From Gluconobacter sp. Gdi (GTDB lineage Bacteria; Pseudomonadota; Alphaproteobacteria; Acetobacterales; Acetobacteraceae): a DNA stretch of 64,000 nt. Both the position numbers and the translations under genes were made by a program. The stretch covers positions 62,001 through 126,000 of the forward strand of contig NZ_BLJQ01000001.1 in the NCBI RefSeq assembly GCF_014132155.1. Reading direction: 5' to 3'. Positions 32,504-51,083 of the stretch are shown here, in pieces; positions within the stretch are counted from its first letter, which is position 1; each line of letters opens with the position of its first letter. Below the pieces are notes generated by a model, which saw only the letters and a program-made list of their open reading frames with translations, was not told where the DNA came from and made no database searches.

Positions 32504-32578
<75 letters not shown>

Positions 32579-33015
32579 GTCTTTTCCCAGAAATTCGTTG
32601 AAGCTTTGCTTGGCCTTGGCTGCTACGGTAGGCCACATGCCACATCAAGGTTTAAGAGGCATTAACTGAGCGAGCCAGATAAGGCCGTCACTGCGTGCTT
32701 GAGTATGATGCCCATAAAGCATTTCAATCTCGCCGCACGCTCTTTCCTAAGAATTGCGCCATCATTTCGAACGGAACACCGCTTGTTCAGCGGTGTTCGT
32801 TGTCTACGCCGACTATATGGTGGGCTGGCGATATGAGAACAGGCCGCTGCGCTTCTGCGGCCATCCTTGTAGATTTTATCCAAAACACAGATACGCGCTT
32901 ACGGCCTATAAAGCCTTAGAAATACGTCAGCAAAGTTTGGACCCCAGAATCAGGCAGTCCGTCTTCCAGTCATTCTCTGGATAATTACTTAGAGATACCG
33001 GCGAGCTGTAGATTG
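32579..33015. other. Non-coding stretch after tRNA-Thr
   Basis: About 437 bases without a convincing gene. It contains one perfect hairpin (32774-32798) and no copy of the tRNA 3' end that would mark an integration site. Short open frames here have no family signature. It ends at the stop of the convergent phosphohexomutase gene. Confidence 0.5.
32774..32798. repeat. Perfect ten-base-pair inverted repeat downstream of tRNA-Thr
   Basis: GAACACCGCT, a five-base loop TGTTC, and AGCGGTGTTC. It is not followed by a T-run on either strand, and its role is unknown. Confidence 0.55.
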
Positions 33016-34803: not shown

Positions 34804-35457
34804 TCAAAGAGAAACAATTCTCAAAATCGTCTCGATGTTAAAGCGAATGCGCTCTGCCTGAGCGGCCTCAGACATCAGTTCCCGTTCGAAGATGATTGAG
34901 CCTGTGTACTGGTTTGTGAAGTAGTAGTAGCTGACTGCTGCAATGGTGATATTGAGCTGGACGGGATCAACGCCCTCTCGAAAGAGGCCTTGTGCCAACC
35001 CACGCTTCAAAATCGTGTCGACAAGGCCGACGAAGCGTCGACTGACAATTTTGACGGCATCGGAAGACTTCAGATGCCGGGCCTGAGCCAGATTCTCGCT
35101 ATTCACCAGTGAAATGAATTCAGGATTCTGAATGTAGTAGTTCCAGGTAAAACGGACGAGTCGTTCCAGAGCTTCTCTTGGGTCCAGACTATCCAGGTCC
35201 AGCTTCTTCTCGGATTCCCGAATATCAAAATACGCGTTTTCCAGAACAGTTTGGAAGAGCTTCTCTTTGCTTTCAAAATAGTGATAAATCATGCGCTTAT
35301 TGGCATTGGCTTCTAGCGCGATTGTATCGACACGGGCTCCTTCAAGGCCATTTTTCGCAAATTCTTTCTTTGCTGCCTCGAGAATCCGGCTCTTCGTAGC
35401 CTCGGCGTCGCGGATGCGAGGGCGGGACGACTGTGTGTCTTGGGACTGTGCACTCAA
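34804..35457 (-). CDS. TetR/AcrR-family transcriptional regulator
   Basis: This 217-residue one-component repressor has its helix-turn-helix at about 17-65: KSRILEAAKKEFAKNGLEGARVDTIALEANANKRMIYHYFESKEKLF. The ligand-binding C-terminal helices follow (TWNYYIQNPEFISLVNSENL, VSYYYFTNQYTGSIIFERE), resembling RutR-like/C-terminal TetR_C-type members. The start appears to be TTG 35457 with only a weak ribosome site, suggesting low expression. It is divergent from the aldehyde dehydrogenase gene across 477 bases, so it probably controls this catabolic block. Ligand is unknown; a sugar acid or an acyl-CoA would fit the neighbours. Confidence 0.9.
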   Translation of the reverse strand: MSAQSQDTQSSRPRIRDAEATKSRILEAAKKEFAKNGLEGARVDTIALEANANKRMIYHYFESKEKLFQTVLENAYFDIRESEKKLDLDSLDPREALERLVRFTWNYYIQNPEFISLVNSENLAQARHLKSSDAVKIVSRRFVGLVDTILKRGLAQGLFREGVDPVQLNITIAAVSYYYFTNQYTGSIIFERELMSEAAQAERIRFNIETILRIVSL

Positions 35458-35934
35458 CGGGAAATCTCGCTTTTTGCTAGAGCCGGGCCTGAAGCTCCCG
35501 CTTTATGGCCGGAAACGCGCAGACGTCAAAACATCACATAAAAAATAACATATAAAAGAGATTTATCTATCACTATAACGTGATTTATGGGATTTTTCAT
35601 TATGCGCTACCAAAGTAACCAGATGGTGCGAAGGGCGATTTGATCTCTCCATGGTGGAGGGGTGAAATCAGGAAGCGGGAGTGAGGAAAACATTTCGAAC
35701 AGTAGTTTTTTCGGAAACATTTTCGGAGAAATAGTCTTCTTGTGGAGGGTCCTGTCCACAGCGCACATTTTGAAAATGAGGTAAAACTCCCTCCAGCGCA
35801 CCGCCAGCCGTAGGCGGTTCAACAGTATCTTTACCGTTAAATAATCCTGGTGCGCTGACCGTCTGCTCACGGGACAATCTGAAACGACGATGCGTCATTG
35901 AGCGCTCGTCAAAAAAGACAGGGAGAAGCCGTCA
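35458..35934. promoter_or_regulatory. Long divergent regulatory region between TetR and aldehyde dehydrogenase genes
   Basis: 477 bases with no supported gene. An AT-rich core at 35530-35600 contains ATCAC-N6-GTGAT at 35569-35584. The part from 35690 to 35870 is also AT-rich and may carry a long leader of the dehydrogenase operon. A ribosome site (GGGAGAAG) precedes ATG 35935. Confidence 0.55.
35569..35584. promoter_or_regulatory. Candidate operator ATCAC-N6-GTGAT
   Basis: A five-base-pair inverted repeat with a six-base spacer (TATAAC) in the most AT-rich part of the TetR/dehydrogenase intergenic region, about 112 bases from the TetR start. It could be a site for autoregulation; short arms make it tentative. 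Confidence 0.35.
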
Positions 35935-37431
35935 ATGAACAAGATGGCACAGAAACTGGCTCCATCCGGAGTGGCTCGTGACTTTGGGTTTTTCATCGAT
36001 GGTGAGTGGCGCCACGGACGTGAGATGTTCGAGCGCAAGTCTCCCAGTCATGATGTTATTGTCACGCGAATTGCACGTTGCACGGAAGACGATCTGAATG
36101 ATGCGGTAGCCGCCGCGCGTCGTGCGTTTGAGAACGGCACATGGGTTGGTCTGGCAAGCTCAGAGCGCAGTGCGATCCTGCTGAAAACGGCTGAGCTTCT
36201 GAAGCAGCGTCGCGATGACATCGCCTTTTGGGAAGTGTTGGAAAACGGCAAGCCGATCTCACAGGCCAAGGCCGAGATCGACAACTGTATTTCCTGTTTC
36301 GAGATGGCTGCCGGTGCCGCGCGCCTTCTGCACGGCGACAGCTTCAACAATCTGGGCGAAAGCCTGTTCGGAATGGTTCTGCGCGAGCCGGTGGGTGTCG
36401 TTGGCCTCATCACGCCTTGGAACTTCCCGTTCATGATCCTGTGTGAGCGAGTGCCGTTCATTCTGGCATCAGGCTGCACGGTCGTCGTGAAGCCAGCGGA
36501 AGTCACCAGCGCCACAACGTTGATGCTTGCCGATATTCTAACGGAAGCCGGCCTGCCAAAGGGCGTCTATAACGTCGTGACGGGCACCGGAAAGAGTGTT
36601 GGTCAGGCTCTGACGCAGCACCCGGATGTAGATATGCTGTCCTTCACTGGTTCCACGGGTGTTGGCCGATCCTGTATCCATGCATCCGCAGACAGCAACC
36701 TCAAGAAGCTTGGTCTGGAGCTTGGTGGCAAGAACCCGATTGTCGTCTTTGCGGACAGCGATCTGGAAGATGCGGCCGATGCGGTGGCCTTTGGGATCAG
36801 CTTCAACACCGGGCAATGCTGCGTATCGTCCAGCCGTTTGATCGTTGAAGAGTCTGTAGCCGACAAGTTCGAAAAGCTTGTTGTCGCTAAGATGGAAAAG
36901 ATCCGCGTGGGCGACCCGTTTGACCCGGAAACGCAGATTGGCGCCATTACAACGGATGCGCAGAACAAGACCATTCTCGACTATATCGAGAAGGGTAAGG
37001 CCGAAGGCGCGCGCGTTCTGTGTGGCGGGAACAAGGTCGATCTGGGTCGTGGGCAGTACATTGCGCCAACGCTCTTCACAAATGTGAAGCCGGATATGTC
37101 CATTGCGACGGACGAGATCTTTGGTCCGGTGCTGTCCGTCTTCCGGTTTGGCACCTTGGAAGAAGCAATCTCGTTGGCCAATGACACGGTTTATGGTCTG
37201 GCCGCGTCTGTCTGGACGAAGGACATTAGTAAGGCCCTGAAGGTGACGCGTAAGGTTCAGGCCGGGCGCTTCTGGGTTAACACGATCATGGCTGGCGGCC
37301 CTGAAATGCCGCTGGGTGGTTTCAAGCAGTCTGGCTGGGGCCGTGAAGCGGGCATGTATGGGGTGGAAGAATACACCCAGATCAAATCCGTTCACGTAGA
37401 TCTCGGCAAACGGACGCACTGGATCGCATAA
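35935..37431 (+). CDS. NAD(P)-dependent aldehyde dehydrogenase, L-sorbosone dehydrogenase-like
   Basis: This 498-residue aldehyde dehydrogenase has TPWNFPFMILCERVPFILASG (cofactor-binding entry), the Rossmann motif FTGSTGVGRS, catalytic Glu in LELGGKNP and catalytic Cys296 in NTGQCCVSS, and EIFGPVLSVF. Its exact length, the following GMC dehydrogenase overlapping by one base, and the overall wording of conserved segments match the L-sorbosone dehydrogenase of Gluconobacter oxydans, which oxidises L-sorbosone to 2-keto-L-gulonate in the cytoplasm. No signal peptide. The aldehyde substrate here is inferred from this resemblance; a different sugar aldehyde is possible. Confidence 0.9.
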   Translation: MNKMAQKLAPSGVARDFGFFIDGEWRHGREMFERKSPSHDVIVTRIARCTEDDLNDAVAAARRAFENGTWVGLASSERSAILLKTAELLKQRRDDIAFWEVLENGKPISQAKAEIDNCISCFEMAAGAARLLHGDSFNNLGESLFGMVLREPVGVVGLITPWNFPFMILCERVPFILASGCTVVVKPAEVTSATTLMLADILTEAGLPKGVYNVVTGTGKSVGQALTQHPDVDMLSFTGSTGVGRSCIHASADSNLKKLGLELGGKNPIVVFADSDLEDAADAVAFGISFNTGQCCVSSSRLIVEESVADKFEKLVVAKMEKIRVGDPFDPETQIGAITTDAQNKTILDYIEKGKAEGARVLCGGNKVDLGRGQYIAPTLFTNVKPDMSIATDEIFGPVLSVFRFGTLEEAISLANDTVYGLAASVWTKDISKALKVTRKVQAGRFWVNTIMAGGPEMPLGGFKQSGWGREAGMYGVEEYTQIKSVHVDLGKRTHWIA

Positions 37432-39026
37432 TGATGACTGGTTTCGATTACGTTATCGTTGGTGGCGGCTCGGCAGGATGTGTTCTTGCCGCCCGTCTCT
37501 CCCGAAACCCGGCGGTGCGCGTCTGCCTGATCGAAGCAGGCAAGCGTGACACCAATCCGCTCATTCACATGCCGGTTGGCTTTGCGAAAATGACGACAGG
37601 CCCCCTGACATGGGGGCTTGTCACCACACCGCAGAAGCACGCCAATAACCGCCAGATCCCGTATGTGCAGGCGCGTGTTCTCGGTGGTGGTTCATCCATC
37701 AATGCCGAAGTCTTCACGCGTGGCCATCCATCTGATTTCGACCGGTGGGAGCAGGAGGGAGCTGACGGCTGGGGCTTCAAGAACATTCAGAAGTATTTCA
37801 TCCGCTCTGAGGGAAATTCCATTCTTGCGGGATCATGGCACGGAACGGATGGTCCACTCGGCGTGTCGAACCTGGATTGCCCCAATCCCGTCAGCCGCGC
37901 CTTCGTACAGAGCTGCCAGGAAATCGGAATTCCGTATAACCCTGACTTTAACGGTCCAGTTCAGCAGGGTGCTGGTATTTACCAGCTGACGGTGCGCAAT
38001 AACCGGCGCTGCTCTACGGCCGTTGGATATCTGCGTCCCGCTCTGAAGCGTAAGAACCTGACGGTGATTACTGGCGCGATGGTTCTGAAGGTCGTCTTCG
38101 AGGGGAAGCGTGCAGTCGGCGTGCAGTACATTGCGGACAAGCAGATGCACACTGCGCGTGCTGAGCAGGAAGTGCTGGTCACGTCCGGTGCAATCGGAAC
38201 GCCAAAGCTGATGATGCTGTCTGGTGTTGGTCCGGCTGCACATCTGAAAGAACACGGTATTCCCGTTGTTCATGATCTGCCGGGTGTGGGTCAGAATCTT
38301 CAGGATCACTTTGGTGTCGATATTGTTGCTGAGCTGAAAGGCCATGACAGTTTCGACAAGTACAACCAGTACAAGTGGATGATGTGGGCTGGCCTACAAT
38401 ATTCGCTGTTTAGAAGTGGTCCAGTGGCGTCGAACGTCGTGGAAGGCGGAGCCTTCTGGTACGGCGATCCGGCTGCAAGCTGCCCGGATCTTCAGTTCCA
38501 CTTCCTGGCGGGCGCTGGCGCGGAAGCGGGTGTGGCGTCTGTTCCGAAAGGGACGTCCGGCATCACGCTCAACAGCTATACGCTTCGGCCAAAAGCGCGT
38601 GGGTCTGTCACGTTGCGTTCGTCTGACCCTCGGGAAGCACCGATTGTGGATCCGAATTTTCTGGGTCACCCAGACGATCTGCGGACAACGGCCGAGGGCG
38701 TTCGCCTGAGCTATGAAATGTTCGGCAGCCACTCGCTGCAACAATACATCAGCAAGGTCTGCCTGCCAGAAGGCGGTGGCCGTACGCTCAAGGCATATGA
38801 GGATTATGCCCGCCAGCAGGGACGCACATCCTATCATCCGACCTGCACGTGCAAAATGGGCAGGGACGAAATGGCGGTTGTTGATCCACGCCTGCATGTG
38901 CATGGTCTGGAGGGCATCCGGATTTGTGATAGCTCGGTCATGCCATCATTGCTTGGGTCTAACACCAATGCGGCAACGGTCATGATTGGTGAACGAGCGG
39001 CGGACTTTATTCTGGGGAATGCTTGA
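37431..39026 (+). CDS. GMC-family FAD dehydrogenase, L-sorbose dehydrogenase-like
   Basis: This 531-residue glucose-methanol-choline oxidoreductase opens with the FAD-binding YVIVGGGSAGCVLAARLS, has VLGGGSSINAEVFTRGHP and GAIGTPKLMMLSGVGPA (GMC signature 2), and C-terminal catalytic residues in TSYHPTCTCKMG (His) and LLGSNTNAATVM (Asn). It closely resembles the L-sorbose dehydrogenase of Gluconobacter oxydans that forms L-sorbosone, in both length and motif wording. There is no signal peptide, so a cytoplasmic-face membrane-associated enzyme feeding quinone is plausible. It starts one base inside the preceding dehydrogenase stop (ATAATG), a coupled pair. Related choline dehydrogenase-type substrates cannot be excluded. 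Confidence 0.9.
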   Translation: MMTGFDYVIVGGGSAGCVLAARLSRNPAVRVCLIEAGKRDTNPLIHMPVGFAKMTTGPLTWGLVTTPQKHANNRQIPYVQARVLGGGSSINAEVFTRGHPSDFDRWEQEGADGWGFKNIQKYFIRSEGNSILAGSWHGTDGPLGVSNLDCPNPVSRAFVQSCQEIGIPYNPDFNGPVQQGAGIYQLTVRNNRRCSTAVGYLRPALKRKNLTVITGAMVLKVVFEGKRAVGVQYIADKQMHTARAEQEVLVTSGAIGTPKLMMLSGVGPAAHLKEHGIPVVHDLPGVGQNLQDHFGVDIVAELKGHDSFDKYNQYKWMMWAGLQYSLFRSGPVASNVVEGGAFWYGDPAASCPDLQFHFLAGAGAEAGVASVPKGTSGITLNSYTLRPKARGSVTLRSSDPREAPIVDPNFLGHPDDLRTTAEGVRLSYEMFGSHSLQQYISKVCLPEGGGRTLKAYEDYARQQGRTSYHPTCTCKMGRDEMAVVDPRLHVHGLEGIRICDSSVMPSLLGSNTNAATVMIGERAADFILGNA

Positions 39027-39083
39027 GAACGATAACCTTCTCAAGCGGCGCCTAATGCATCGCGATTTTTACAAGATCATAAG

Positions 39084-39101
39084 TAACTAACAAGATAGTT
39101 A
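39084..39101 (+). promoter_or_regulatory. Candidate operator upstream of CoA-transferase
   Basis: TAACTAAC-AA-GATAGTTA, an inverted repeat with one mismatched pair, 16 bases before the start codon. It matches the perfect palindrome at 42114-42135 in spacing and in 13 of 14 core bases, so the two are probably sites for the same regulator, most simply the TetR protein of this block. Confidence 0.6.
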
Positions 39102-39117
39102 TAGTGGATCAAAGGCA

Positions 39118-40689
39118 ATGACCAAGACCAGAACCGCAGCGGAAGCCGTCAGTCTTATCAAGGATGGTTCCACCATTGCGATCAACGCATCGTCCGGGCT
39201 TCTGTGCCCCGACGATGTTCTGAAGGCGCTCGGGGAGCGTTTTGAAAAGGAAGCGGCCCCGAAGAACCTGACGACGATCCATCCGATCGCGACGGGTGAC
39301 ATGTTTGGGACCAAGGGCGTGGATCATATCGCCCAGCCTGGCATGATCAAAAAGATCATCGGCGGGTCTTATCCGTCCGGTCCCAGCAATGCTGAGCCAC
39401 CGCTTATCTGGCAACGCATTCTGGCCGAGGACGTCGCCGCTTATAACCTTCCATCTGGCGTTATCTTCGACATGCTGCGTGAAGGTGCGGCCCTGCGTCC
39501 CGGCGTCCTGACAAAAGTTGGTCTCGATACATTCGTAGACCCGAAGCGGGAAGGCGGGGCGATGAATGAGACCGCACGCTCCAATCCCATCGTGCGTCAC
39601 ATGGACTTCGAGGGCGAAGACTGGCTGTATTTCCCGGCGCTGAGGCCGGACGTTGCCATCATTCGTGCTTCGACAGCGGACGAGAATGGCAATCTGACAT
39701 TCGAGCAGGAAGGTGCCACCCTTGGTGCCATGGAAATGGCTCTGGCGGCTCATAACAATGGTGGGCTGGTCATCGCGCAGGTTCGGCGCGTGGCAGAACA
39801 GGGCACGTTGAAGCCGCATGACGTCAAAGTGCCGGGTATTCTGGTGGACGTTGTTGTGGAAGCCCCGGATCAGTTGCAGACGACTGCTACGCCTTATGAT
39901 CCTGCAATTTCTGGTGAGATTTTCCGGCCTCTGTCGTCCTTCGCTATTCCGGATTTCAATCCGGGCAAGGTGATTGCGCGACGTGTGGCGCAGGAGCTGA
40001 AGGATGGCTGGGCCGTCAATATCGGCTTCGGTATTTCCGCCAATGTGCCGCGCATCCTGCTGGAAGAAGGGCTGCATGGTAGCGTGACATGGGTTATCGA
40101 ACAGGGACCGGTTGGCGGCGTTCCGCTGCTGGACTTCAAGTTCGGTTGCGCGAGTAACGCCGAGGCGTTTGTGGCCTCTCCTCATCAGTTCAGTTACTTC
40201 CAGGCGGGCGGCTTTGATTGCTCCCTGCTGTCCTTTCTTGAGATCGGGGCTGATGGGTCGGTCAATGTCAGCCGCCTTGCTGCCACGCCGCATCGGACGG
40301 CAGGGGCGGGCGGTTTCGTAGACATTACGGCACGGGCCAAGCGCATCATCTTCTCAGGCAATTTCAATGCCGGAGCCAAGATGCACATCGAGGACGGCCG
40401 TCTCGTGATTGATCGGGAAGGCAAGATTTCCAAGATCGTGCCAGAGGTGGATCAGGTCAGCTTCTCAGGGCGCAGAGCCACCGAAACAGGGCAGGACGTC
40501 ACCTACGTGACGGAACGCTGTGTTCTCAAGCTTCTGAACGGTGAACTGACGGTCACGGAAATCGCGCCGGGCATCGAGTTACAGAAAGATGTGCTCGATC
40601 AGGCATCCACGCCTCTGAAGGTTTCGCCTGAACTGAAGGAAATGGGTGCCGTTCTGTTCAGGGATGCCGTGATGGGGCTCAAGCTCTGA
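39118..40689 (+). CDS. Acyl-CoA:carboxylate CoA-transferase (propionate/acetate CoA-transferase family)
   Basis: This 523-residue family I CoA-transferase has the alpha and beta halves fused, like YdiF/propionate CoA-transferase. The N-terminal half begins EAVSLIKDGSTIAINASSG; the second half has WVIEQGPVGGVP, holding the probable catalytic Glu (about 328) that forms the acyl-glutamyl/CoA intermediate, and ends with VTYVTERCVLKLLNGELTVTEIAPGI. It would activate an organic acid by transferring CoA from a donor such as acetyl-CoA. It follows sdh after 91 bases containing a palindromic operator, so it starts a second transcription unit. Acid substrate is unknown. Confidence 0.9.
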   Translation: MTKTRTAAEAVSLIKDGSTIAINASSGLLCPDDVLKALGERFEKEAAPKNLTTIHPIATGDMFGTKGVDHIAQPGMIKKIIGGSYPSGPSNAEPPLIWQRILAEDVAAYNLPSGVIFDMLREGAALRPGVLTKVGLDTFVDPKREGGAMNETARSNPIVRHMDFEGEDWLYFPALRPDVAIIRASTADENGNLTFEQEGATLGAMEMALAAHNNGGLVIAQVRRVAEQGTLKPHDVKVPGILVDVVVEAPDQLQTTATPYDPAISGEIFRPLSSFAIPDFNPGKVIARRVAQELKDGWAVNIGFGISANVPRILLEEGLHGSVTWVIEQGPVGGVPLLDFKFGCASNAEAFVASPHQFSYFQAGGFDCSLLSFLEIGADGSVNVSRLAATPHRTAGAGGFVDITARAKRIIFSGNFNAGAKMHIEDGRLVIDREGKISKIVPEVDQVSFSGRRATETGQDVTYVTERCVLKLLNGELTVTEIAPGIELQKDVLDQASTPLKVSPELKEMGAVLFRDAVMGLKL

Positions 40690-40733
40690 ACGCCCCAGGC
40701 CGTCTTTTCCGTGAGTGGAGTCTGAAAGAAGCC

Positions 40734-41993
40734 ATGACAGTCGACGATCACAGTTTTCTGACAGGTCTGTTCAATGCCGCCATTACGGCCGCCGACGCAG
40801 ACCTCGTGCTGGCTGCCAACCTGCCGGAGCGCCCGAAAGGCAAGACGGTCGTGGTTGGCGCCGGGAAGGGGGCAGCCCAGCTTGCCGCAGCTTTCGAGCG
40901 CGTGTGGGATGGTCCGTTGGAAGGCGTTGTCGTCACCCGTTATGGCTATGGCTACCCTACAGAACAGATCCGTGTTCTAGAGGCTTCCCATCCGGTTCCG
41001 GATCAAGCCGGTCTGGCTGCAACGGCGGCTTTATTTGAGGCGGTGCGTGGATTAGGTCCGGATGATCTGGTCGTTGCACTGATCTGCGGAGGTGGATCGG
41101 CCTTGCTGCCATGTCCGCCAGAAGGATTCACGTTGGAAGATGAAGCGGAGCTCAGCCGGGTTCTCCTGTCTTCTGGCGCGCCGATTTCTGTTATGAACAG
41201 CATCCGCAAGCAGTTTTCGGGGATTAAGGGCGGTCGTCTGGCCGCTGCGGCTTCCCCGGCGAGAGTCGTTTCACTCATAGTTTCGGATGTACCGTTTGAT
41301 GATCCGGCACAGGTGGCCTCTGGACCAACAGTGCCTGATACAAAAACACGCGAAGACGCGCGGCATATGGCCAAGGCCTGGAAGCTCGCACTGCCGCCTA
41401 AAGTGCAGGCATGGCTTGACGGAGAGCTGGGGCAGGCGCCGCGTCCGGAAGATCCGGCATTCGCCGGGAACGAAGTTCGTATTGTGGCGTCGGCTCATCT
41501 GTCTCTTGAGGCAGCAGCAGCTGCGTCCAGAAATCTTGGAATTCCTGCTGTTATCCTGTCAGACGCGATTGAAGGGGAAGCCCGGGATGTCGGGAAGGTC
41601 CATGCAGCGATCGCGCGGGAAGTGATTATTCGTAATCAGCCATTCCAGAAGCCGGTTGTCATCCTCTCGGGGGGAGAAACAACGGTGACATTGCGTGGAC
41701 GTGGACGGGGTGGTCGCAACACGGAGTTTCTCCTGTCGTTTGCGCTCGCGGCTGAAGGGCTCCCGGTTTCCGCACTCGCTGCGGATACAGATGGAATTGA
41801 CGGGTCTGAGGACAATGCCGGTGCCTTTGCAGATGGCGAAAGTATGGGACGACTGCGCGCGCGCGGGATCAATCCGTCCGTCCTGCTGGCGGAAAACGAC
41901 GCCTATACTGCCTTTGAGGCATTAGATGACCTGTTTGTGCCAGGTCCTACCGGGACAAACGTCAATGATTTTCGCGCTATTCTGCTGAGGTAG
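40734..41993 (+). CDS. Glycerate 2-kinase (MOFRL / GckA-TtuD type)
   Basis: This 419-residue type II glycerate kinase phosphorylates D-glycerate to 2-phosphoglycerate; older annotations call it hydroxypyruvate reductase. KTVVVGAGKGAAQLAAAFE and VALICGGGSALL belong to the N-terminal domain, with MNSIRKQFSGIKGGRLAAAA carrying the conserved Lys; the C-terminal MOFRL domain has VILSGGETTVTLRGRGRGGRNTEF and ALAADTDGIDGSEDNAGA. It follows the CoA-transferase after 44 bases, same operon likely. Its presence implies that a C3 hydroxyacid or its precursor is an intermediate of this catabolic block. Confidence 0.92.
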   Translation: MTVDDHSFLTGLFNAAITAADADLVLAANLPERPKGKTVVVGAGKGAAQLAAAFERVWDGPLEGVVVTRYGYGYPTEQIRVLEASHPVPDQAGLAATAALFEAVRGLGPDDLVVALICGGGSALLPCPPEGFTLEDEAELSRVLLSSGAPISVMNSIRKQFSGIKGGRLAAAASPARVVSLIVSDVPFDDPAQVASGPTVPDTKTREDARHMAKAWKLALPPKVQAWLDGELGQAPRPEDPAFAGNEVRIVASAHLSLEAAAAASRNLGIPAVILSDAIEGEARDVGKVHAAIAREVIIRNQPFQKPVVILSGGETTVTLRGRGRGGRNTEFLLSFALAAEGLPVSALAADTDGIDGSEDNAGAFADGESMGRLRARGINPSVLLAENDAYTAFEALDDLFVPGPTGTNVNDFRAILLR

Positions 41994-42113
41994 AAAAAGA
42001 TGGCGAAGTAAAAAATGTTCCTTAACGAGAGCGAATTCATTCTGGGTATTATGAACATCAAGTTCTTTTGATTTCAAAACGCAGAATGGCCTTGAAAATA
42101 GATCAGTCACCAT

Positions 42114-42135
42114 AATAACTAACTGGTTAGTTATT
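42114..42135. promoter_or_regulatory. Perfect palindromic operator before acyl-CoA dehydrogenase operon
   Basis: AATAACTAAC, spacer TG, GTTAGTTATT: ten-base-pair perfect arms, 18 bases before ATG 42154 and just upstream of the ribosome site. The size and symmetry are typical of TetR-family operators. A near-copy lies at 39084-39101. Confidence 0.75.
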
Positions 42136-42153
42136 AAATAAGGGAATCGGGTT

Positions 42154-43296: not shown

Positions 43297-44060
43297 GACA
43301 GGTCGCTCTCGTCACCGGCTCTTCACGCGGGATCGGCCTGGCCGCCGCAGAAGCGCTCGCTAAGGAAGGTTTTTCTTTAGCGGTAAATGGACCGGTTGAT
43401 GATGCAGAACTGCGTGCAGCCGTGGCCCGTCTGGAAGGGCTGGGCGCCAAGGTTGTAGCTGCCCCGTTCGATGTGTCCGACATCAGCGCCCATGCGGGTG
43501 TTCTGGCGCGGATCGAAGACGAACTCGGCCCGCTAACAACGTTGGTGAACAATGCGGGCGTCGGCGTCCTCCAGCGGGGTGACCTGCTGGACGTGTCCGA
43601 AGCAAGCTGGGACCGGTGCCTGATGATCAATGCGAAGGCGGTATTCTTCCTGTCACAGGCTTTCGCAAAGCGCCTTCTGAGCCGGGAACGGTCAGCCGAT
43701 GCGTTCCATTCGATCGTCAACGTCACATCGTCAAATGCGACGGCTGTGGCAGTGCAGCGGTCTGAATACTGCGCGTCAAAGGCTGCGGCGGCCATGGTGT
43801 CCAAAGCTCTGGCCGTTCGTCTCGGGATCGAAAATATCGCGGTCTATGACGTTCAGCCCGGCCTGATCGCTACAGAAATGACGGCTGCCGTGATCCAGCA
43901 CTACCGCCAGCGCGCGGAAGAGGGACTGACCCTGCTTCCCCGCGTTGGAGAGCCCTCGGACATGGGGCGCATCATTGCGGCTCTTGCCACCGGGAAACTG
44001 CCTTACACCACAGGCCAGGTTATTTCGGCGGATGCCGGAATGCTTGTGCCGCGCTTCTGA
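43293..44060 (+). CDS. SDR-family 3-ketoacyl reductase-like oxidoreductase
   Basis: This 255-residue classical short-chain dehydrogenase has the cofactor motif VTGSSRGIGLAAAEAL, NNAGVGV, catalytic Ser in NVTSSNATA and YCASK (Tyr/Lys), and VQPGLIATEM. Its start overlaps the acyl-CoA dehydrogenase stop by four bases. In this setting it could oxidise or reduce a hydroxy/keto group on the CoA-linked or free intermediate; the name 3-ketoacyl-ACP reductase given to relatives is not evidence of a fatty-acid role here. The DUF993 gene follows after nine bases. Confidence 0.9.
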   Translation: MRQVALVTGSSRGIGLAAAEALAKEGFSLAVNGPVDDAELRAAVARLEGLGAKVVAAPFDVSDISAHAGVLARIEDELGPLTTLVNNAGVGVLQRGDLLDVSEASWDRCLMINAKAVFFLSQAFAKRLLSRERSADAFHSIVNVTSSNATAVAVQRSEYCASKAAAAMVSKALAVRLGIENIAVYDVQPGLIATEMTAAVIQHYRQRAEEGLTLLPRVGEPSDMGRIIAALATGKLPYTTGQVISADAGMLVPRF

Positions 44061-44069
44061 GAAACGGTT

Positions 44070-45218
44070 ATGAAGATCATCCTGCCCGACGAAACCGGCC
44101 GGAAGATGGACTACCATCTGATCGGTACTCCTGTTCCTCGCAGTGTCCTTCCTGCCAATCCGGCCCGGATTGTTTATTCGGCGGCCCATGTCGTCGCAGA
44201 TCCGTTTACGGATAACGCACCGTCCGGCCGCGCCACGATTGACTGGAAGAAGACGCTTGAGTTCCGGCGCTATCTCGTCGGCATGGGGCTCGGTATTGCT
44301 GAAGCCATGGATACGGCCCAGCGCGGCATGGGTCTGGACTGGCCCGGCGCGCTGGATCTGATCCGTCGCACCAAGGCCGAACTGCCCGATGCGATGGTCG
44401 TGAACGGAGCGGGGACAGACCATCTGGACCCGAAGGATGCACGCTCTGTCGATCATGTGCTCGCAGCATATCGGGAACAGGTCGAGGCGATCCAGAAAGT
44501 TGGCGCACGCGTCATCCTGATGGCCAGCCGAGCCCTCGTCCGCGTGGCATCCAGTGCGGAGGACTATAAGCGGGTCTACCGCGAGGTGCTCTCTGCCTGT
44601 GCTGAGCCTGTCGTTTTGCACTGGCTGGGCAAGGATTTCGATCCGGCTCTGGAGGGCTACTGGGGCACGGATGATTTCAATGAGGCACTGGAAACAGTCC
44701 TGAGCATCATTGAAGAAAACGTCTCGAAGGTGGACGGCATCAAGATTTCCCTTCTCGACAAGGAGAAGGAAATCATCATGCGCCGTCGCCTGCCCAAGGG
44801 CGTGCGGATGTATACGGGTGATGACTTCAATTATCCTGAACTGATCGCTGGTGACGAGCAGGGCTATAGCCACGCACTTCTCGGCATTTTCGATCCGATT
44901 GCACCGCTTGCTGCTCGTGGTGTGAAACTGCTCGGCGAGGGGGACGTGAAAGGTTTTCACGACGCACTCGACCCGACTGTTCCGCTGGCTCGTGTAATCT
45001 TTCAGGCCCCGACGCAGTACTACAAGACGGGTGTGGTGTTTCTGGCCTGGCTGAATGGCTTTCAGGATCACTTCGTCATGCTGAATGGTGCGCAGTCCAT
45101 GCGGTCCCTCCAGCATTTCACGGAGATCTTCCGTCTCGCTGATGGCTGCGGCCTGTTGCGGAACCCGGATCTGGCTGTGCACCGCATGAAGTCGCTTCTG
45201 TCGGTGTACGGGGCCTGA
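44070..45218 (+). CDS. DUF993 protein, DapA-like TIM barrel (putative aldolase/lyase)
   Basis: This 382-residue DUF993 protein is annotated in databases as dihydrodipicolinate-synthase-family. Seen: an N-terminal segment MKIILPDETGRKMDYHLIGT, then IVYSAAHVVADPFTD, ALDLIRRTKAELPDAMVVNG and VEPVVLHWLGK-like strand AEPVVLHWLGKDFDP. VDGIKISLLDKE holds a Lys at about 225 where DapA-type enzymes form the Schiff base. This suggests retro-aldol cleavage or dehydration of a keto acid, but no member has a firm function known to me. It sits between an SDR and an epimerase-type TIM barrel (two bases before the next start), so it acts in the same pathway. Confidence 0.87.
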   Translation: MKIILPDETGRKMDYHLIGTPVPRSVLPANPARIVYSAAHVVADPFTDNAPSGRATIDWKKTLEFRRYLVGMGLGIAEAMDTAQRGMGLDWPGALDLIRRTKAELPDAMVVNGAGTDHLDPKDARSVDHVLAAYREQVEAIQKVGARVILMASRALVRVASSAEDYKRVYREVLSACAEPVVLHWLGKDFDPALEGYWGTDDFNEALETVLSIIEENVSKVDGIKISLLDKEKEIIMRRRLPKGVRMYTGDDFNYPELIAGDEQGYSHALLGIFDPIAPLAARGVKLLGEGDVKGFHDALDPTVPLARVIFQAPTQYYKTGVVFLAWLNGFQDHFVMLNGAQSMRSLQHFTEIFRLADGCGLLRNPDLAVHRMKSLLSVYGA

Positions 45219-45220
45219 TC

Positions 45221-46078
45221 ATGCGGGACTTTCGCCACGATCATTCGGCTCTCGCCCTCAATACCGCAACGCTTGGCCATAACGTGCCGGGTGTTGGGGC
45301 AGGGTGGTCACCGGAACAGACGATCGACGCCTGTGCTGAACGTGGCATCGGCGGGATCGTGTTCTGGCGGCGGGAGATCGAAGGCCGGGCTGCGGAAATT
45401 GGAGACCGGGCGCGTCAGGCCGGGGTGCAGGTTGTCGGCCTGTGCCGGACGCCCTTTCTGGTCGGTCCGCTGGGCCTTCAGAGCGAAGAGGCAATCCTGT
45501 CGGATTTCCGTCAGTCCATTGACCAGACAGCCGCACTCGAAACCGATGTTCTGACCATCGTTGTCGGTGGTGTGGAAACCGGCACGAAGGGCGTGGCTCA
45601 CAGCCTAGACATCGTGGCGGACCGGATGGCGAAGGCCATTCCCTACGCTGAAGCCTCTGGCGTGAAACTCGCATTGGAGCCGTTGCATCCGGCCTATGCC
45701 GGAGACCGCTCCTGCCTCACGACCACCCGTGACGCCCTGGATCTATGCGACCTTCTGGCGTCGGATAGCGTGGGCGTTGCGATCGATATCTACCATGTGT
45801 GGTGGGACACGGACCTGCCACGCCAGCTCGCTCGTGCGGGAAACCGCATTCTGGGCTTTCACCTCTGTGACTGGCTTGTTCCTACAACTGACATCCTGCT
45901 TGACCGCGGGATGATGGGGGACGGCGTTGCGGACCTGCGGGGGATCCGCAGGGAGGTGGAAGCCGCCGGGTATTCCGGCTTCTGCGAGGTGGAAATCTTT
46001 TCCGCGAACAACTGGTGGAAGCGCCACCCGGCTGACGTGCTGGACACGATGGTCGAACGCTTCCGCACTGTCTGCTGA
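45221..46078 (+). CDS. Sugar phosphate isomerase/epimerase family TIM barrel (AP_endonuc_2)
   Basis: This 285-residue xylose-isomerase-like TIM barrel carries the usual metal-binding acids: Glu in KLALEPLHP, Asp in [12 protein letters not shown], His in [12 protein letters not shown], and Glu in GFCEVEIFS. Relatives include hydroxypyruvate isomerase, tagatose/psicose epimerases and IolE/IolI-type dehydratase/isomerases, so it probably isomerises a keto sugar or sugar acid. It begins two bases after the DUF993 stop, and EtfB follows after 16 bases. The exact reaction cannot be read. Confidence 0.9.
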
Positions 46079-46094
46079 CCCATCGGAGGGCATC

Positions 46095-46856
46095 ATGAAG
46101 ATCCTCGTCCCTGTCAAACGTGTCGTCGATTACAACGTCCGCATCCGCGTAAAGGGTGACGGATCTGGGGTCGAGCTTGCGAACGTCAAGATGTCGGTCA
46201 ATCCGTTTGACGAAATCGCCATCGAAGAAGCCGTCCGTCTCAAGGAAAAAGGTATCGCCACGGAAGTGGTCGCTGTCTCTATCGGTGTGCCGCAGGCGAA
46301 GGAAACACTGCGCACCGTGCTCGCGATGGGCGCGGACCGTGCCATTCTCGTTGAAGCCACGACAGATGTGAATGTGGATATCGAGCCTCTCGCCGTCGCC
46401 AAACTGCTGGCGAAGGTGATTGAGGATGAGAAACCGAACCTCGTCATCGCGGGCAAGCAGGCCATCGATAACGACATGAACGCGACCGGCCAGATGCTCG
46501 CCGCTCTGCTGGGCTGGGGCCAGGCCACCTTCGCGTCGTCCGTCGAGATTGAGGGCGACAGTGCAACCGTCAGCCGTGAGGTTGATGGTGGCCTTCAGAC
46601 CATCCGCGTGAAGCTGCCCGCCATCATCACGTCCGATCTGCGCCTGAACGAGCCGCGCTATGTCGCGCTGCCTAACATCATGAAGGCCAAGAAGAAGCCG
46701 CTCGAAGAACGCAAGGCGTCTGACCTCGGCGTGGACATTGCGCCGCGTCTGAAGGTCATCCGCACGGCTGAACCGCCTCAGCGTCAGGCTGGTGTGAAGG
46801 TCAGTTCCGTTGATGAGCTGGTTTCGAAACTCAAAAATGAAGCAGGAGTGATCTGA
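46095..46856 (+). CDS. etfB: Electron transfer flavoprotein beta subunit
   Basis: This 253-residue EtfB binds AMP and pairs with EtfA. It starts [20 protein letters not shown] and contains [34 protein letters not shown] (ETF-beta signature region) and a C-terminal [19 protein letters not shown], the recognition loop that docks acyl-CoA dehydrogenases. The start is ATG 46095 with GGAGGG upstream; an in-frame ATG at 45927 lies inside the previous gene. Its stop overlaps the etfA start by one base (TGATG). Confidence 0.95.
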
Positions 46857-47782
46857 TGTCTGTTCTGCTGCTCGCTGAAGTGGCCAATGGCCACCTCGTA
46901 ACCGATACCGTTGCCAAGGCCCTGTCTGCCGTCAAAGCGCTGGGTGATGTGACGGTTCTCGTTGCCACCCAGAACGGCGTGGAAGCTGCCGCCGAAGCTG
47001 CAAAGCTTGAGGGTGTCTCCAAGGTCCTGCTGGCGGATGATGCGTCTCTGGCTCATGAACTGGCTGAACCTGTCTCTGCCTTCATCGTGTCTTTGGCTTC
47101 CGGCTATAGCCATATCGCTGCGGGCTCGACGGCGTTCTCCAAGAACGTTCTGCCACGCGTTGCCGCTCTTCTGGATGTCATGATCCTGTCAGACGTAACG
47201 GCTGTGAAGGATGCCGAGACGTTCGATCGTCCGGTCTATGCTGGCAATGCGATCCAGACAGTGCAGTCCTCCGATCCGGTGAAGGTTTTCACCATTCGTA
47301 CGGCGGCTTTCTCGGCTGTTGGCGAAGGTGGCTCGGCCAGTGTGGAAAATGTCTCTGTTCCGGCGGATCCGGGTCTCTCGTCCTGGGTGGAAGACAAGGC
47401 AGTTGAGTCCGAACGTCCGGAACTGACGGCAGCCAAGAACATCGTCTCAGGCGGCCGTGGCGTCGGATCGAAAGAGAACTTCGACACCATCGCCAACCTT
47501 GCGGACAAGCTGAATGCCGCCATCGGCGCCAGCCGTGCGGCTGTGGATGCAGGCTACGCGCCGAATGACTGGCAGGTCGGGCAGACGGGCAAGATCGTGG
47601 CACCTGATCTGTACATCGCGGTCGGTATCTCCGGAGCGATCCAGCATCTGGCGGGCATGAAGGATTCCGGGGTGATCGTCGCCATCAACAAGGACGAAGA
47701 CGCCCCGATTTTCCAGGTCGCGGATTATGGGCTGGTGGGAGACCTCTTCACCATCCTTCCCGAACTGACGGCAAAACTCTGA
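46856..47782 (+). CDS. etfA: Electron transfer flavoprotein alpha subunit
   Basis: This 308-residue EtfA, carrying FAD, forms the ETF heterodimer that takes electrons from the acyl-CoA dehydrogenase. The C-terminal FAD domain has [54 protein letters not shown] and [20 protein letters not shown], the family signature. Length is standard. It is coupled to etfB by a one-base overlap; ETF-QO follows after 34 bases. Confidence 0.96.
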
Positions 47783-47816
47783 CAGGCCCTGGCAGTCTGC
47801 AGGGAGGAGAAAGACC

Positions 47817-49469
47817 ATGACTACGATCGAACGGGAAAGCATGGACTATGACGTTGTCATCGTCGGCGCTGGCCCTGCCGGTCTCTCCGCGGCGATCCGG
47901 CTCAAACAGAATGAGCCGGACCTTTCCGTGGTCGTACTGGATAAAGGGTCTGAAGTCGGGGCGCATATCCTGTCAGGCGCGGTCATTGATCCGTGCGCGC
48001 TGGACGTGCTGCTCCCTGACTGGCGGACAATGGATGCGCCCATCACCGTGCCGGTGAGGGAAGACAATTTCTTCCTGCTGACGGAAAAGAGCCAGATCCG
48101 CCTGCCTAATGTTCTGATGCCGAAGCTTATGGACAACCATGGGAATTACATTGTCTCGCTGGGGAATGTCTGCCGCTGGCTTGCACAGGTCGCAGAGGGT
48201 CTGGAAGTGGAAATCTTTCCCGGCATGGCGGCAAGCGAAGTCGTTTATGACGATCAGGGTCGCGTTGCAGGTGTGGTGGCTGGCGAGTTCGGTAAAAACC
48301 CGGATGGAACGCCAGGAGATGCCTATGAGCCTGGTATGGAACTGCGCGGGAAATACGTGTTCTTCGCCGAAGGTGCGCGGGGGGCACTGGCCCGGCAGCT
48401 GATGGATCGTTTCGCGCTTTCCGAGGGCAAGGACCCGCAGAAATTCGGGCTGGGCCTCAAGGAAATCTGGGAGATCGATCCCGCCAAACATCATGAAGGC
48501 ACAGTCACACACACCATGGGCTGGCCGCTGAACAGCAAGGCGGGTGGCGGGTCCTTCATCTACCATCTCGACAACAATCAGGTCTGCGTCGGGTTTGTTG
48601 TCCATCTGGGCTATGAAAACCCGTATCTGGACCCCTACCGTGAGTTTCAGGAGTTCAAGCACCATCCGATGGTGGCCGAACTGCTGAAGGGCGGAAAACG
48701 CGTGGCCTATGGTGCGCGTGTGCTATCCGAAGGTGGCTGGCAGTCCATTCCGAAAGTGACTTTCCCTGGCGGCGTTCTGCTCGGGTGTTCCGCCGGACTT
48801 GTGAATGTTCCGCGCATCAAGGGCAGTCATAACGCCATTTTCTCCGGCATTGCCGCTGCCGATGCGGCCCGCGCTGCGCTGGCGTCTGGGCGCGCTCAGG
48901 ACGAACTGACGGATTATGAGGAAGAACTGCGAAACGGCCCTGTCGGGACAGACTTAAAGGCCGTCCGTAACGTCAAACCTCTGTGGGAGCGGTTTGGCCT
49001 CCTGGGCGGTGTTGCGCTCGGTGGTCTGGATATGTGGATGACAACTCTGACCGGACACTCTCCCTTCAGAACGCTCGGACACGGAAAGTCCGATGCTGCG
49101 GCAACAGGGTTGGCTGCTAGTTTCAAGCCGATTGAATATCGCAAGCCGGACGGGCAACTCAGCTTTGATCGCACAACCAATGTGGCGTTTGCCTTCACCA
49201 ACCACGAAGAACGCCAACCCTGCCATCTGACACTCCGTGATCCATCCATCCCAATCCAGGTGAACCTGCCGCTCTACGCTGAGCCTGCCCAGCGTTACTG
49301 CCCGGCGGGCGTGTATGAGGTTCTGCGTCCGGAGAATGAACAGCCACGGTTCCAGATTAACTTCCAGAACTGTGTGCATTGCAAAACCTGCGACATCAAA
49401 GATCCGAGCCAGAATATCGTTTGGATAACGCCGCAGGGAGGTGATGGACCGAACTATCCGAACATGTAA
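47817..49469 (+). CDS. Electron transfer flavoprotein-ubiquinone oxidoreductase
   Basis: This 550-residue membrane-associated FAD/[4Fe-4S] enzyme passes electrons from ETF to ubiquinone. The N-terminal YDVVIVGAGPAGLSAAIRL binds FAD; a quinone-binding/membrane surface lies in the middle (LGLKEIWEIDPAKHHEGTV); the C-terminal ferredoxin-like part has RYCPAGVYEV and NCVHCKTCDIKDPSQNI, giving four cluster cysteines. GGAGGAGAAA precedes ATG 47817; an internal ATG at 47841 is possible. It ends the electron-transfer part of the operon and ties this pathway directly to respiration. Confidence 0.95.
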   Translation: MTTIERESMDYDVVIVGAGPAGLSAAIRLKQNEPDLSVVVLDKGSEVGAHILSGAVIDPCALDVLLPDWRTMDAPITVPVREDNFFLLTEKSQIRLPNVLMPKLMDNHGNYIVSLGNVCRWLAQVAEGLEVEIFPGMAASEVVYDDQGRVAGVVAGEFGKNPDGTPGDAYEPGMELRGKYVFFAEGARGALARQLMDRFALSEGKDPQKFGLGLKEIWEIDPAKHHEGTVTHTMGWPLNSKAGGGSFIYHLDNNQVCVGFVVHLGYENPYLDPYREFQEFKHHPMVAELLKGGKRVAYGARVLSEGGWQSIPKVTFPGGVLLGCSAGLVNVPRIKGSHNAIFSGIAAADAARAALASGRAQDELTDYEEELRNGPVGTDLKAVRNVKPLWERFGLLGGVALGGLDMWMTTLTGHSPFRTLGHGKSDAAATGLAASFKPIEYRKPDGQLSFDRTTNVAFAFTNHEERQPCHLTLRDPSIPIQVNLPLYAEPAQRYCPAGVYEVLRPENEQPRFQINFQNCVHCKTCDIKDPSQNIVWITPQGGDGPNYPNM

Positions 49470-49554
49470 ATTTGAATAAAAAGAAATATAACCTGTCTCT
49501 TTTATTTGATTTTACTTGAATAAACAACCTGAGAACATGCTGCGTTGAAAGACT

Positions 49555-49571
49555 ATTCCCATAATGGGAAT
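49555..49571. promoter_or_regulatory. Palindrome upstream of sugar transporter
   Basis: ATTCCCAT-A-ATGGGAAT: perfect eight-base-pair arms with a one-base centre, 21 bases before the transporter start and downstream of an AT-rich promoter-like stretch (49480-49540). Its sequence differs from the AACTAAC operators, so a second regulator is likely. Confidence 0.6.
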
Positions 49572-49591
49572 CTGAAGTAAGGAATAAGGCA

Positions 49592-50992
49592 ATGAGTGGC
49601 ATCGACCTTTCGGCACCACCGCCGCCAGTGTCTCTGAATGGTAAAAGTGTCCTGACGGCAATTCTGGCTGCTGTTGCGGGTCTGATGTTTGGTCTCGATC
49701 TGGGTGTGATTTCAGGGGCTCTGAAATTCATCGGTCTGGAATTCAACGTCACGGACTTCGGCAAGGAGTGCATCGTCTCATCGATGATGGTTGGTGCGGC
49801 GGTAGGTGCCGTCTGCGGCGGGCGCCTGTCCTATCTTTTTGGCCGGAAGCGTCTGCTGCTGTCTTCCGCTGTTCTGTTCGTTCTCGGGTCGCTGCTGTGC
49901 GCGCTGGCAACATCCGTCACGCTTTTGATTGTGGGACGTATGGTGCTTGGAGTGTCTGTTGGCATCGCAAGCTTTACCGCTCCACTTTACATCTCCGAGA
50001 TTGCGCATCAGCACTACCGTGGGTCCCTGATCTCGGTTTACCAGCTCATGATTACGGTCGGGATTTTTGTAGCGTTCATCTCTGATGCGCTGCTGGCTTA
50101 TTCCGGCTCATGGCGCTGGATGCTCGGCATCGTCGCTATTCCAGGCGTCGTGTTTCTGCTTGGCGTGCTGCTGCTGCCCGACAGCCCCCGTTGGCTCGTA
50201 TTGCGGGGCCGTAAGGACGAAGCCTTTACGGTTCTGCATCAGTTGCGTGGCCATGAAGGCGACGCACGTGCCGAGATCTCGGACATTGAAGAGCAGCTTG
50301 CGCAGATTGAAGGCGGCTATGGCCTGTTCAAGGCCAACGCCAATTTCCGCCGCTCTGTTTTTCTGGGCATCCTGCTCCAGACCATGCAGCAGTTCACGGG
50401 CATCATCGTGGTGATGTACTACGCCCCCCGCATCTTCGAAGTCGCAGGCTTTGGCGATAACGCAGCCATGTGGGGCACAGCCATTGTCGGTCTGGTGAAT
50501 GTGCTTTCGACGTTCATTGCCATCGGCTTCGTGGACAAATGGGGCCGTCGCCCGATGCTGGTTGCCGGCTTCATCATCATGACGATCGGCATGGCTTCAG
50601 TTGGCACGCTGCTCTACTTCGGAACCGGCAATAGCGAACTTGCGCGATATGGCGCCGTGATCATGCTGCTGGCCTTCATCGTCGGATTTGCGTTCTCTGC
50701 CGGTCCGCTGGTGTGGATCCTTTGCTCGGAAGTTCAGCCCATCAAAGGGCGCGATTTCGGCATCGGTTGCTCCACCTTCACGAACTGGGTCACGAACATG
50801 ATCGTCGGCCTGACGTTCCTGATGCTCCTGAACACCATCGGGAATGCCCAGACCTTCTGGATGTACGCGGCGTTCAATGCGTTCTTCATCTACCTCACCC
50901 TGAAATTTGTGCCTGAAACCCGCGGTGTTTCCCTTGAGCAGATTGAGCGGAACCTGATGGCGGGCAAGTCACTCAACCGGATCGGTCTGTGA
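49592..50992 (+). CDS. MFS sugar transporter (sugar porter family)
   Basis: This 466-residue 12-helix proton symporter of the GalP/XylE/AraE type. Sugar porter signatures: GLMFGLDLGVISGALKFI (helix 1), GRKRLLLSS (loop 2-3), VGRMVLGVSVGIAS, LPDSPRWLVLRGR (end of helix 6), QFTGIIVVMYYAPRIF (QxTG..YY sugar-binding helix 7), DKWGRRPML (loop 8-9) and PETRGVSLEQIE (C-terminal). It probably imports a hexose or polyol-derived sugar for the neighbouring catabolic operon. It has its own AT-rich promoter region with a palindrome and a double-hairpin terminator. Confidence 0.94.
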   Translation: MSGIDLSAPPPPVSLNGKSVLTAILAAVAGLMFGLDLGVISGALKFIGLEFNVTDFGKECIVSSMMVGAAVGAVCGGRLSYLFGRKRLLLSSAVLFVLGSLLCALATSVTLLIVGRMVLGVSVGIASFTAPLYISEIAHQHYRGSLISVYQLMITVGIFVAFISDALLAYSGSWRWMLGIVAIPGVVFLLGVLLLPDSPRWLVLRGRKDEAFTVLHQLRGHEGDARAEISDIEEQLAQIEGGYGLFKANANFRRSVFLGILLQTMQQFTGIIVVMYYAPRIFEVAGFGDNAAMWGTAIVGLVNVLSTFIAIGFVDKWGRRPMLVAGFIIMTIGMASVGTLLYFGTGNSELARYGAVIMLLAFIVGFAFSAGPLVWILCSEVQPIKGRDFGIGCSTFTNWVTNMIVGLTFLMLLNTIGNAQTFWMYAAFNAFFIYLTLKFVPETRGVSLEQIERNLMAGKSLNRIGL

Positions 50993-51011
50993 TCCTGCCC
51001 CTCGGCACGAC

Positions 51012-51062
51012 TGTCCCGGCGCTTTCACACCTGCCGGGACAAACCGCCTTTGCGGCGGTTTT
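51012..51062 (+). terminator. Tandem hairpin terminator after sugar transporter
   Basis: First hairpin TGTCCCGGC / GCCGGGACA (51012-51041, 12-base loop), immediately followed by AAACCGCC / GGCGGTTT (51041-51061, five-base loop) with a short T-run. They lie between the transporter stop and gap. Confidence 0.8.
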
Positions 51063-51083
51063 CCCTGACGGAGACCAAAGACA

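Follow-up and report, generated by a model that had tools for sequence, protein, structure and literature searches.

A portable gene block in Gluconobacter with a DUF993 protein as candidate lyase of a proposed CoA-linked, beta-oxidation-like sugar pathway

Introduction

For Klebsiella michiganensis M5al, Price et al. (2019) proposed a degradation of deoxyribonate that proceeds via deoxyribonyl-CoA, 3-keto-deoxyribonyl-CoA and glyceryl-CoA to glycerate and involves a FabG-like short-chain dehydrogenase/reductase (SDR), a thiolase, a relative of propionate-CoA-transferase and a glycerate kinase (PMC6365646). As judged by analogy from the consulted part of this paper, the acyl-CoA deoxyribonate pathway appears to be the closest described relative of a gene block in Gluconobacter sp. 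Gdi, which is located at positions 34804-52103 of a window of 64,000 nucleotides (the whole stretch of DNA that was analyzed; all coordinates refer to it) and includes a gene of the family DUF993. We read the block, at a probability of about 45%, as encoding a single pathway that degrades a neutral sugar or polyol and that would be CoA-linked and beta-oxidation-like, with DUF993 in the place of the thiolase.

Common to both systems would be a sugar acid as proposed CoA ester, a FabG-like SDR, the kind of CoA-transferase, a glycerate kinase and the entry of glycerate as 2-phosphoglycerate; indeed, the combination of SDR, CoA-transferase and glycerate kinase that marks a deoxyribonate-type acyl-CoA pathway is present in the block. 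In contrast, the K. michiganensis route comprises a CoA-synthetase and a thiolase, and DUF993, acyl-CoA dehydrogenase (ACAD), electron transfer flavoprotein (ETF), GMC oxidoreductase and the xylose-isomerase-like protein of the block (EPI) are not named in the consulted part of that account (PMC6365646); relative to it, DUF993 would stand at the thiolase's position, with ACAD, EtfBA and ETF-ubiquinone oxidoreductase (ETF-QO) added. According to the same excerpt, the beta-keto acid cleavage route of deoxyribonate degradation (P. simiae, P. bryophila, B. phytofirmans) resembles the block in an SDR leading to a 3-keto acid, a one-enzyme C-C cleavage and a glycerate kinase; it works on the free acid, as DUF993 loci with a Gfo/Idh-type dehydrogenase may do (see below), and differs from the block by another cleaving family and by the lack of ACAD and ETF (PMC6365646). 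The thiolase of the deoxyribonate pathway had no match in the host genome (Thiolase_C), no search having been aimed at the beta-keto acid cleavage family.

The non-phosphorylative Entner-Doudoroff route employs an aldolase of the dihydrodipicolinate synthase (DHDPS) fold, an aldehyde dehydrogenase (ALDH) and a MOFRL-type glycerate 2-kinase, and all three kinds of protein are also found in the block; compared with this route, CoA and ACAD genes are added, and the DUF993 sequence is far from those of 2-keto-3-deoxygluconate aldolases. A sugar-acid dehydratase was not detected by Pfam/NCBIfam among the block proteins, to which the search was confined. The ALDH gene (1497 nt) followed by the GMC gene (1596 nt) is near in length and order to what we take to be the dimensions of sndh-sdh from G. 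oxydans T-100. This L-sorbose/L-sorbosone dehydrogenase pair (Saito 1997) is described, in the parts consulted, in PMC8064726, PMC13209538 and PMC8102297; as in T-100, the genes for ALDH and a FAD-type GMC protein are adjacent, while the domain libraries assign GMC and ALDH only and leave the sorbose names unconfirmed. A preliminary description of the window had put the pathway forward as a candidate for an undescribed one, and no published description of it was found in searches of open-licence PMC papers, none of which was found to name DUF993.

Results

Gene content and organization

The genes named in the preliminary description are open frames, and Pfam/NCBIfam searches return the folds that had been assigned to them. 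Its extent (34804-50992) was right for these thirteen genes but not in its end, since the gene of glyceraldehyde-3-phosphate dehydrogenase (GAPDH) co-travels with them; the block thus comprises fourteen genes and covers 34804-52103:

34804-35457, minus strand: TetR-family regulator, divergent from the block (Pfam TetR_N and TetR_C_29)
35569-35586, plus strand: candidate TetR operator, imperfect inverted repeat
35935-37431, plus strand: ALDH, candidate sndh (Pfam Aldedh, 575 bits; NCBIfam cut-offs unmet among the rows listed)
37431-39026, plus strand: GMC oxidoreductase, candidate sdh (Pfam GMC_oxred_N and GMC_oxred_C)
39118-40689, plus strand: YdiF/Pct-type fused CoA-transferase (Pfam CoA_trans; solved relative 2ahu, YdiF, 372 bits)
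40734-41993, plus strand: glycerate kinase of the DUF4147 + MOFRL type (NCBIfam glycerate 2-kinase models below cut-off)
42154-43296, plus strand: short-chain-type ACAD with YEGT motif (Pfam/NCBIfam)
43293-44060, plus strand: FabG-like SDR (NCBIfam PRK12745, above cut-off)
44070-45218, plus strand: DUF993, DHDPS-fold protein with candidate Schiff-base Lys225 (Pfam, 592 bits)
45221-46078, plus strand: xylose-isomerase-like TIM barrel, EPI (Pfam AP_endonuc_2; solved relatives 3ju2, 3qc0, 7vpf)
46107-46856, plus strand: EtfB, start inferred (Pfam ETF)
46856-47782, plus strand: EtfA (NCBIfam EtfA-type models)
47817-49469, plus strand: ETF-QO, FixC/ETF-QO-like, with Fer4_ETF_QO domain; second genomic copy
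49592-50992, plus strand: sugar porter of the major facilitator superfamily (TIGR00879, above cut-off)
51084-52103, plus strand: GAPDH (TIGR01534, above cut-off); second genomic copy

The genes on the one strand are tightly packed, with overlaps of one base (ALDH/GMC, EtfB/EtfA) or four bases (ACAD/SDR) and spacings of nine bases (SDR-DUF993) and two bases (DUF993-EPI). The YEGT motif, presumably harbouring the catalytic glutamate of ACADs, was found in 30/30 related ACADs. The gap between the TetR and ALDH genes contains an imperfect inverted repeat common to the Gluconobacter blocks, a candidate TetR operator by its sequence (35569-35586): its pattern has this sole match in the window (0.01 expected) and occurs exactly in 10 of 125 loci, all of them Gluconobacter block loci, although these match counts are not independent because the pattern was read from nine of the 10 loci and the window. 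Scans for promoters and terminators in turn gave results near chance.

The block as one portable unit

Among 26 Gluconobacter genomes, DUF993 is present in 12, in a single copy each; ETF-QO is encoded in all 26, with a second copy in exactly the 12 block holders, and GAPDH has two copies in these 12 and one in the remaining 14. The idea that the block ETF-QO serves the whole genome is weakened by the presence of another ETF-QO in all 26. The closest DUF993 among the matches listed is that of G. japonicus (98% identity). Ten of 17 mapped Gluconobacter stretches carry the block, and as far as each extends, the order TetR-ALDH-GMC-CoA-transferase-glycerate kinase-ACAD-SDR-DUF993-EPI-EtfB-EtfA-ETF-QO-sugar porter-GAPDH is constant (the stretches of G017 and G024 stop just short of GAPDH, TetR of G024 would lie past the contig end, and the contig of G008 starts at DUF993, its first half being unseen). 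TetR holds the same position in the eight Gluconobacter block stretches that reach this end, and in locus L114.

The block is found in two chromosomal settings with the same gene order: it adjoins clpA in five genomes (G000, G006, G007, G008, G022) and lies on a different contig from clpA in seven (G004, G013, G014, G016, G017, G018, G024). In six DUF993-less genomes (G002, G009, G011, G012, G020, G025), block and GAPDH were absent from a stretch of approximately 17 kb that flanks clpA on one side. A comparison of the two Gluconobacter groups gives identities of 62-97% (mostly 74-87%) for the block proteins and of 94% for ClpA, which points to a separate acquisition or a faster change; ACAD is the most conserved of them (95-97%). 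That the block genes form one unit can be stated with very little doubt.

Several features of the surroundings were recorded in addition. The copy in G014 (L110, G014:C2:86000-105900) has GMC and ACAD each matching in two pieces, in the manner of frameshifts; it may be decaying or broken, or affected by sequence or assembly errors. In the window, a tRNA-Thr and a phosphomannomutase/GlmM-like gene (32504-34485) lie between TetR and the gene at 30673-31803, whereas in G006 (L125), a closely similar genome, less than 1 kb separates TetR from the counterpart of this gene; in consequence, the stretch 32504-34485 is variable. With respect to clpA, four genes of the window (26355-31803) point the other way in three stretches from DUF993-less genomes and in G013 (L116, L118, L119) and are arranged otherwise elsewhere, i.e. 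the clpA neighbourhood is rearranged.

Related loci beyond the genus

One scan of a genome collection with DUF993 provided 80 loci (the best 80 of at least 586 confirmed candidates), 30 of which bear an ACAD of at least 60% identity; both flanks are available for 18 of these 30, many of them being ended by contig ends. Loci that share a genus do not count as independent, and neither do the counts over loci and over Gluconobacter genomes, since L008 and G017 appear to be one genome and L002 is probably G008. Besides Alpha-, Beta- and Gammaproteobacteria, the ACAD-bearing loci include one with an actinomycete label (Enemella, L019), and 26 of the 30 (all except L026, L029, L039, L049) have ACAD-SDR-DUF993-EPI contiguous and in the same order. 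SDR was found in 30/30 loci with ACAD versus 3/50 without, CoA-transferase in 23/30 versus 6/50, GMC in 21/30 versus 1/50 and ALDH in 17/30 versus 2/50; EPI does not discriminate (28/30 versus 46/50). The distance matrix of ACAD correlates with those of DUF993, SDR, CoA-transferase and EPI (rho 0.77-0.87, n=24-31) and less with that of GMC (rho 0.48, n=22).

Longer operons occur on annotated plasmid records of Roseateles sp. (L086), S. meliloti pSymA (L085), Paracoccus (L083), Sagittula (L084), Rhizobium (L097) and Janthinobacterium (L087), with the variable addition of an ABC sugar importer, a zinc-type alcohol dehydrogenase, aldo/keto reductases and an enoyl-CoA hydratase (ECH). In Roseateles, TetR, ABC importer, ALDH, GMC, CoA-transferase, ECH, glycerate kinase, ACAD, SDR, DUF993, EPI, EtfBA and ETF-QO form one run; the binding protein of the importer has 2rjo as relative (271 bits) and otherwise general sugar-binding relatives. 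ParDE-type toxin-antitoxin pairs are located within or just past the operon on the S. meliloti (L085:6554-7160) and Roseateles (L086:23592-24139) plasmids, and a small Dabb-family protein (L084:11147-11458) is a recurrent neighbour of ECH and CoA-transferase in a number of CoA-type clusters.

Two neighbouring but unrelated units (34804-41993 and 42154-49469) might be suspected from the 157-base gap between glycerate kinase and ACAD and from relatives in which the ALDH-GMC pair is on the opposite strand or beyond the core (e.g. L005, L006, L010, L014, L015). However, the halves remain close in many genera even if rearranged, and in Gluconobacter they moved jointly as one block; given the co-occurrence counts and the joint transfer, this explanation was rejected as exceedingly improbable. 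The single sugar-linked unit favored in the preliminary description is thereby borne out, and halves that never co-occur, named there as the observation that would speak against it, are clearly not what is seen in Gluconobacter and the other genera.

The linkage data also bear on the role of the two oxidoreductases. GMC and ALDH could take L-sorbose to 2-keto-L-gulonate, DUF993 splitting the keto-hexonate to hydroxypyruvate or tartronate semialdehyde and a triose, EPI isomerizing, glycerate kinase finishing the conversion and the CoA/ACAD part being a side reaction. The gene sizes of ALDH and GMC, which presumably agree with sndh-sdh, the weak match of EPI to the NCBIfam hydroxypyruvate isomerase (E 7e-8, far below cut-off) and the suitability of GAPDH and glycerate kinase for two C3 products would fit such a scheme, but it leaves the most conserved block protein, ACAD, devoid of a main role and builds on GMC-ALDH, the least tightly linked pair; we regard it as improbable.

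Fold and candidate active site of DUF993

The predicted structure of DUF993 (predicted local distance difference test 90, predicted template modelling score 0.90) has its best solved match in 4dnh, S. meliloti SMc04132 (template modelling score, TM, 0.96; Foldseek), followed at ranks 2-50 by DHDPS-family entries (E from 2e-10, target TM mostly 0.7-0.85). Lys225, in a GIK/GVK-type motif, is invariant in 29/29 aligned members and is paired with the lysine of the DapA GVK motif in a profile alignment of low probability (3.6%). 2-Keto-acid aldolases possess a carboxylate-binding GTTGE motif and a catalytic tyrosine; in DUF993 both are replaced by GxGTD and an invariant His-Trp pair (alignments judged by eye), which makes a 2-keto-acid substrate uncertain. 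In its predicted structure, DUF993 has the DHDPS fold, and it is likely a class I-type Schiff-base lyase/aldolase: of the TIM-barrel aldolase initially proposed, the fold and an invariant candidate lysine are found, whereas the chemistry is likely only.

For DUF993 as well as EPI, solved family members are available from S. meliloti, namely SMc04132 (4dnh, titled only "hypothetical protein"; DUF993, 481 bits) and SMc04130 (3ju2, 3qc0; EPI, 264 bits); the entries as listed assign a function to neither. Both are chromosomal copies distinct from the CoA-type cluster of pSymA, and as SMc04130 is two locus tags away from SMc04132, the pair probably lies together in this organism. SMc04132 and SMc04133 appear in a table of regulated genes, with no function assigned in the consulted part of that paper (PMC12542648). 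A divergent DUF993 gene on a Streptomyces plasmid (L091:9998-11185) directly precedes a type I polyketide synthase and retains Lys225; its product may act in biosynthesis.

Two alternative partner modules of DUF993

Across the 80 DUF993 loci, SDR is present in 34, a close Gfo/Idh dehydrogenase in 39, both in none and neither in seven; CoA-transferase occurs in 30, none with a close Gfo/Idh, and together with SDR in 26. When distinct states are counted per genus label (44 labels, 52 states), 0 combine SDR with Gfo/Idh, 25 and 20, respectively, have one of the two alone and 7 have neither (Fisher p 7e-9). The threshold of the Gfo/Idh call was 33% identity; at a laxer one, three loci (L031, L039, L064; 25-27% identity) would have both Gfo/Idh and CoA-transferase. 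At a greater distance the modules do meet: in Peteryoungia, which has SDR and CoA-transferase, and in Roseibium, which has CoA-transferase, a Gfo/Idh gene lies some 12 and 13 kb from DUF993, respectively, and in Glaciihabitans, where Gfo/Idh adjoins DUF993, a CaiB-type CoA-transferase and ECH follow within a few kb. From the mutual exclusion, it looks as if DUF993 receives a ketone by two alternative routes, made directly by Gfo/Idh or by the SDR/CoA module.

The DUF993 loci of Gfo/Idh type, being free of CoA genes, would also suit a sequence of steps in which cleavage precedes CoA activation: GMC, ALDH and SDR would oxidize the sugar or sugar acid, DUF993 would split it without CoA, and of the two products one would become glycerate while the other, a short acid, would be activated by the CoA-transferase and oxidized by ACAD/ETF/ETF-QO. 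The nearest NCBIfam model of the block ACAD, acryloyl-CoA reductase (370 bits, cut-off 640), and the similarity of the CoA-transferase to YdiF are in line with this order. Nevertheless, the translational coupling upstream of DUF993 extends beyond SDR to ACAD, and the exchange of SDR plus CoA genes for Gfo/Idh points to a role before DUF993; cleavage as the earlier event therefore seems rather unlikely.

Beta-oxidation genes in the host and in related clusters

ACAD, EtfBA and ETF-QO usually serve the oxidation of fatty or branched-chain acids, and with ACAD, ETF and ETF-QO the block contains the set by which a beta-oxidation operon is recognized. Such an operon, lying by chance among sugar genes, would agree with the ECH genes of 12/12 other block-type holders tested and with the ECH or MaoC genes within the flanks examined of 16/24 ACAD loci outside Acetobacteraceae (versus 0/6 in Acetobacter/Gluconobacter). 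In the host genome (99.97% complete), however, ECH_1, MaoC and Thiolase_C have no match, while the same searches matched ECH_1 in 13, MaoC in 8 and Thiolase_C in 12 of 14 control genomes; besides, sugar importers and sugar-type enzymes are part of the operon across many genera. A fatty-acid or branched-chain acid operon is thus very improbable here. The initial argument against fatty-acid or leucine use is strengthened by these negatives, and on conservation the genes are not confined to leucine or fatty-acid breakdown. The host contains four further ACAD-type middle domains (23-57 bits versus 95 for that of the block).

The same argument had been put as an absence of hydratase and thiolase: correct for the host, the absence of hydratase is not general among related clusters (16/24 with ECH or MaoC). 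With the Roseateles ECH as query, weak matches (26-30% identity) were obtained in 4/26 Gluconobacter genomes, including three that carry the block. Together with the ECH genes of other holders, these matches imply that the pathway is not defined by the lack of a hydratase.

Discussion

The type of substrate and the reactions that we infer for the CoA-linked pathway are as follows. The sugar porter would import a sugar or polyol, GMC and ALDH would oxidize its primary alcohol to the acid, and the YdiF/Pct-type CoA-transferase would convert this sugar acid to the CoA thioester. ACAD would then desaturate the thioester, with electrons passing via EtfBA and ETF-QO to ubiquinone; its participation implies removable hydrogens beside the thioester, as in a deoxy-sugar acid. 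In hosts with ECH or MaoC the double bond would be hydrated, whereas in those devoid of a hydratase a hydroxyacyl-CoA might be desaturated to an enol that turns into the ketone, a proposal of our own for which we know of no precedent. The FabG-like SDR would form the 3-keto compound, and DUF993 would cleave the carbon chain via a Schiff base formed by Lys225; the C3 fragment would yield D-glycerate (EPI, ALDH) and, upon phosphorylation, 2-phosphoglycerate, while the block's own GAPDH in Gluconobacter suggests that part of the carbon may be channelled via triose phosphate. Of the interpretation in the preliminary description, the one sugar-linked unit has been retained, and the chemistry is plausible only.

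Several observations weigh against this pathway. An enoyl-CoA would meet no known hydratase in this host; only a minority of the ACAD loci adjoin EtfB (8/30), ETF-QO (3/30) or glycerate kinase (6/30), many of them being cut by contig ends; and a common history of the species might account for some of the correlation between the distance matrices. Sequence profiles relate DUF993 only weakly to DHDPS (probability 3.6%), with a histidine of DUF993 aligned to the DapA tyrosine. DUF993 itself needs no CoA, as clusters of the Gfo/Idh type employ it in the absence of CoA genes.

A broader version, namely a widespread, horizontally moving pathway in which a sugar-derived acid is oxidized as CoA thioester, a dedicated ACAD feeds ubiquinone, DUF993 as a new class of Schiff-base lyase replaces the thiolase and sndh-sdh, the classical genes of vitamin C precursor formation, provide the first two steps, is put forward tentatively and with more doubt than confidence. 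Very probably, the block is a portable and, within the open-licence literature searched, undescribed catabolic unit.

The partition between SDR plus CoA genes and Gfo/Idh links DUF993 with either of two oxidation modules, so that the type of its substrate, presumably a ketone, becomes directly testable. If the CoA-linked pathway is correct, ACAD and ETF would belong to sugar breakdown, and assigning genes of this kind to fatty-acid metabolism would be misleading in rhizobia, rhodobacters, acetic acid bacteria and pseudomonads; the pathway would also represent a natural setting for genes that may be those used in 2-keto-L-gulonate production.

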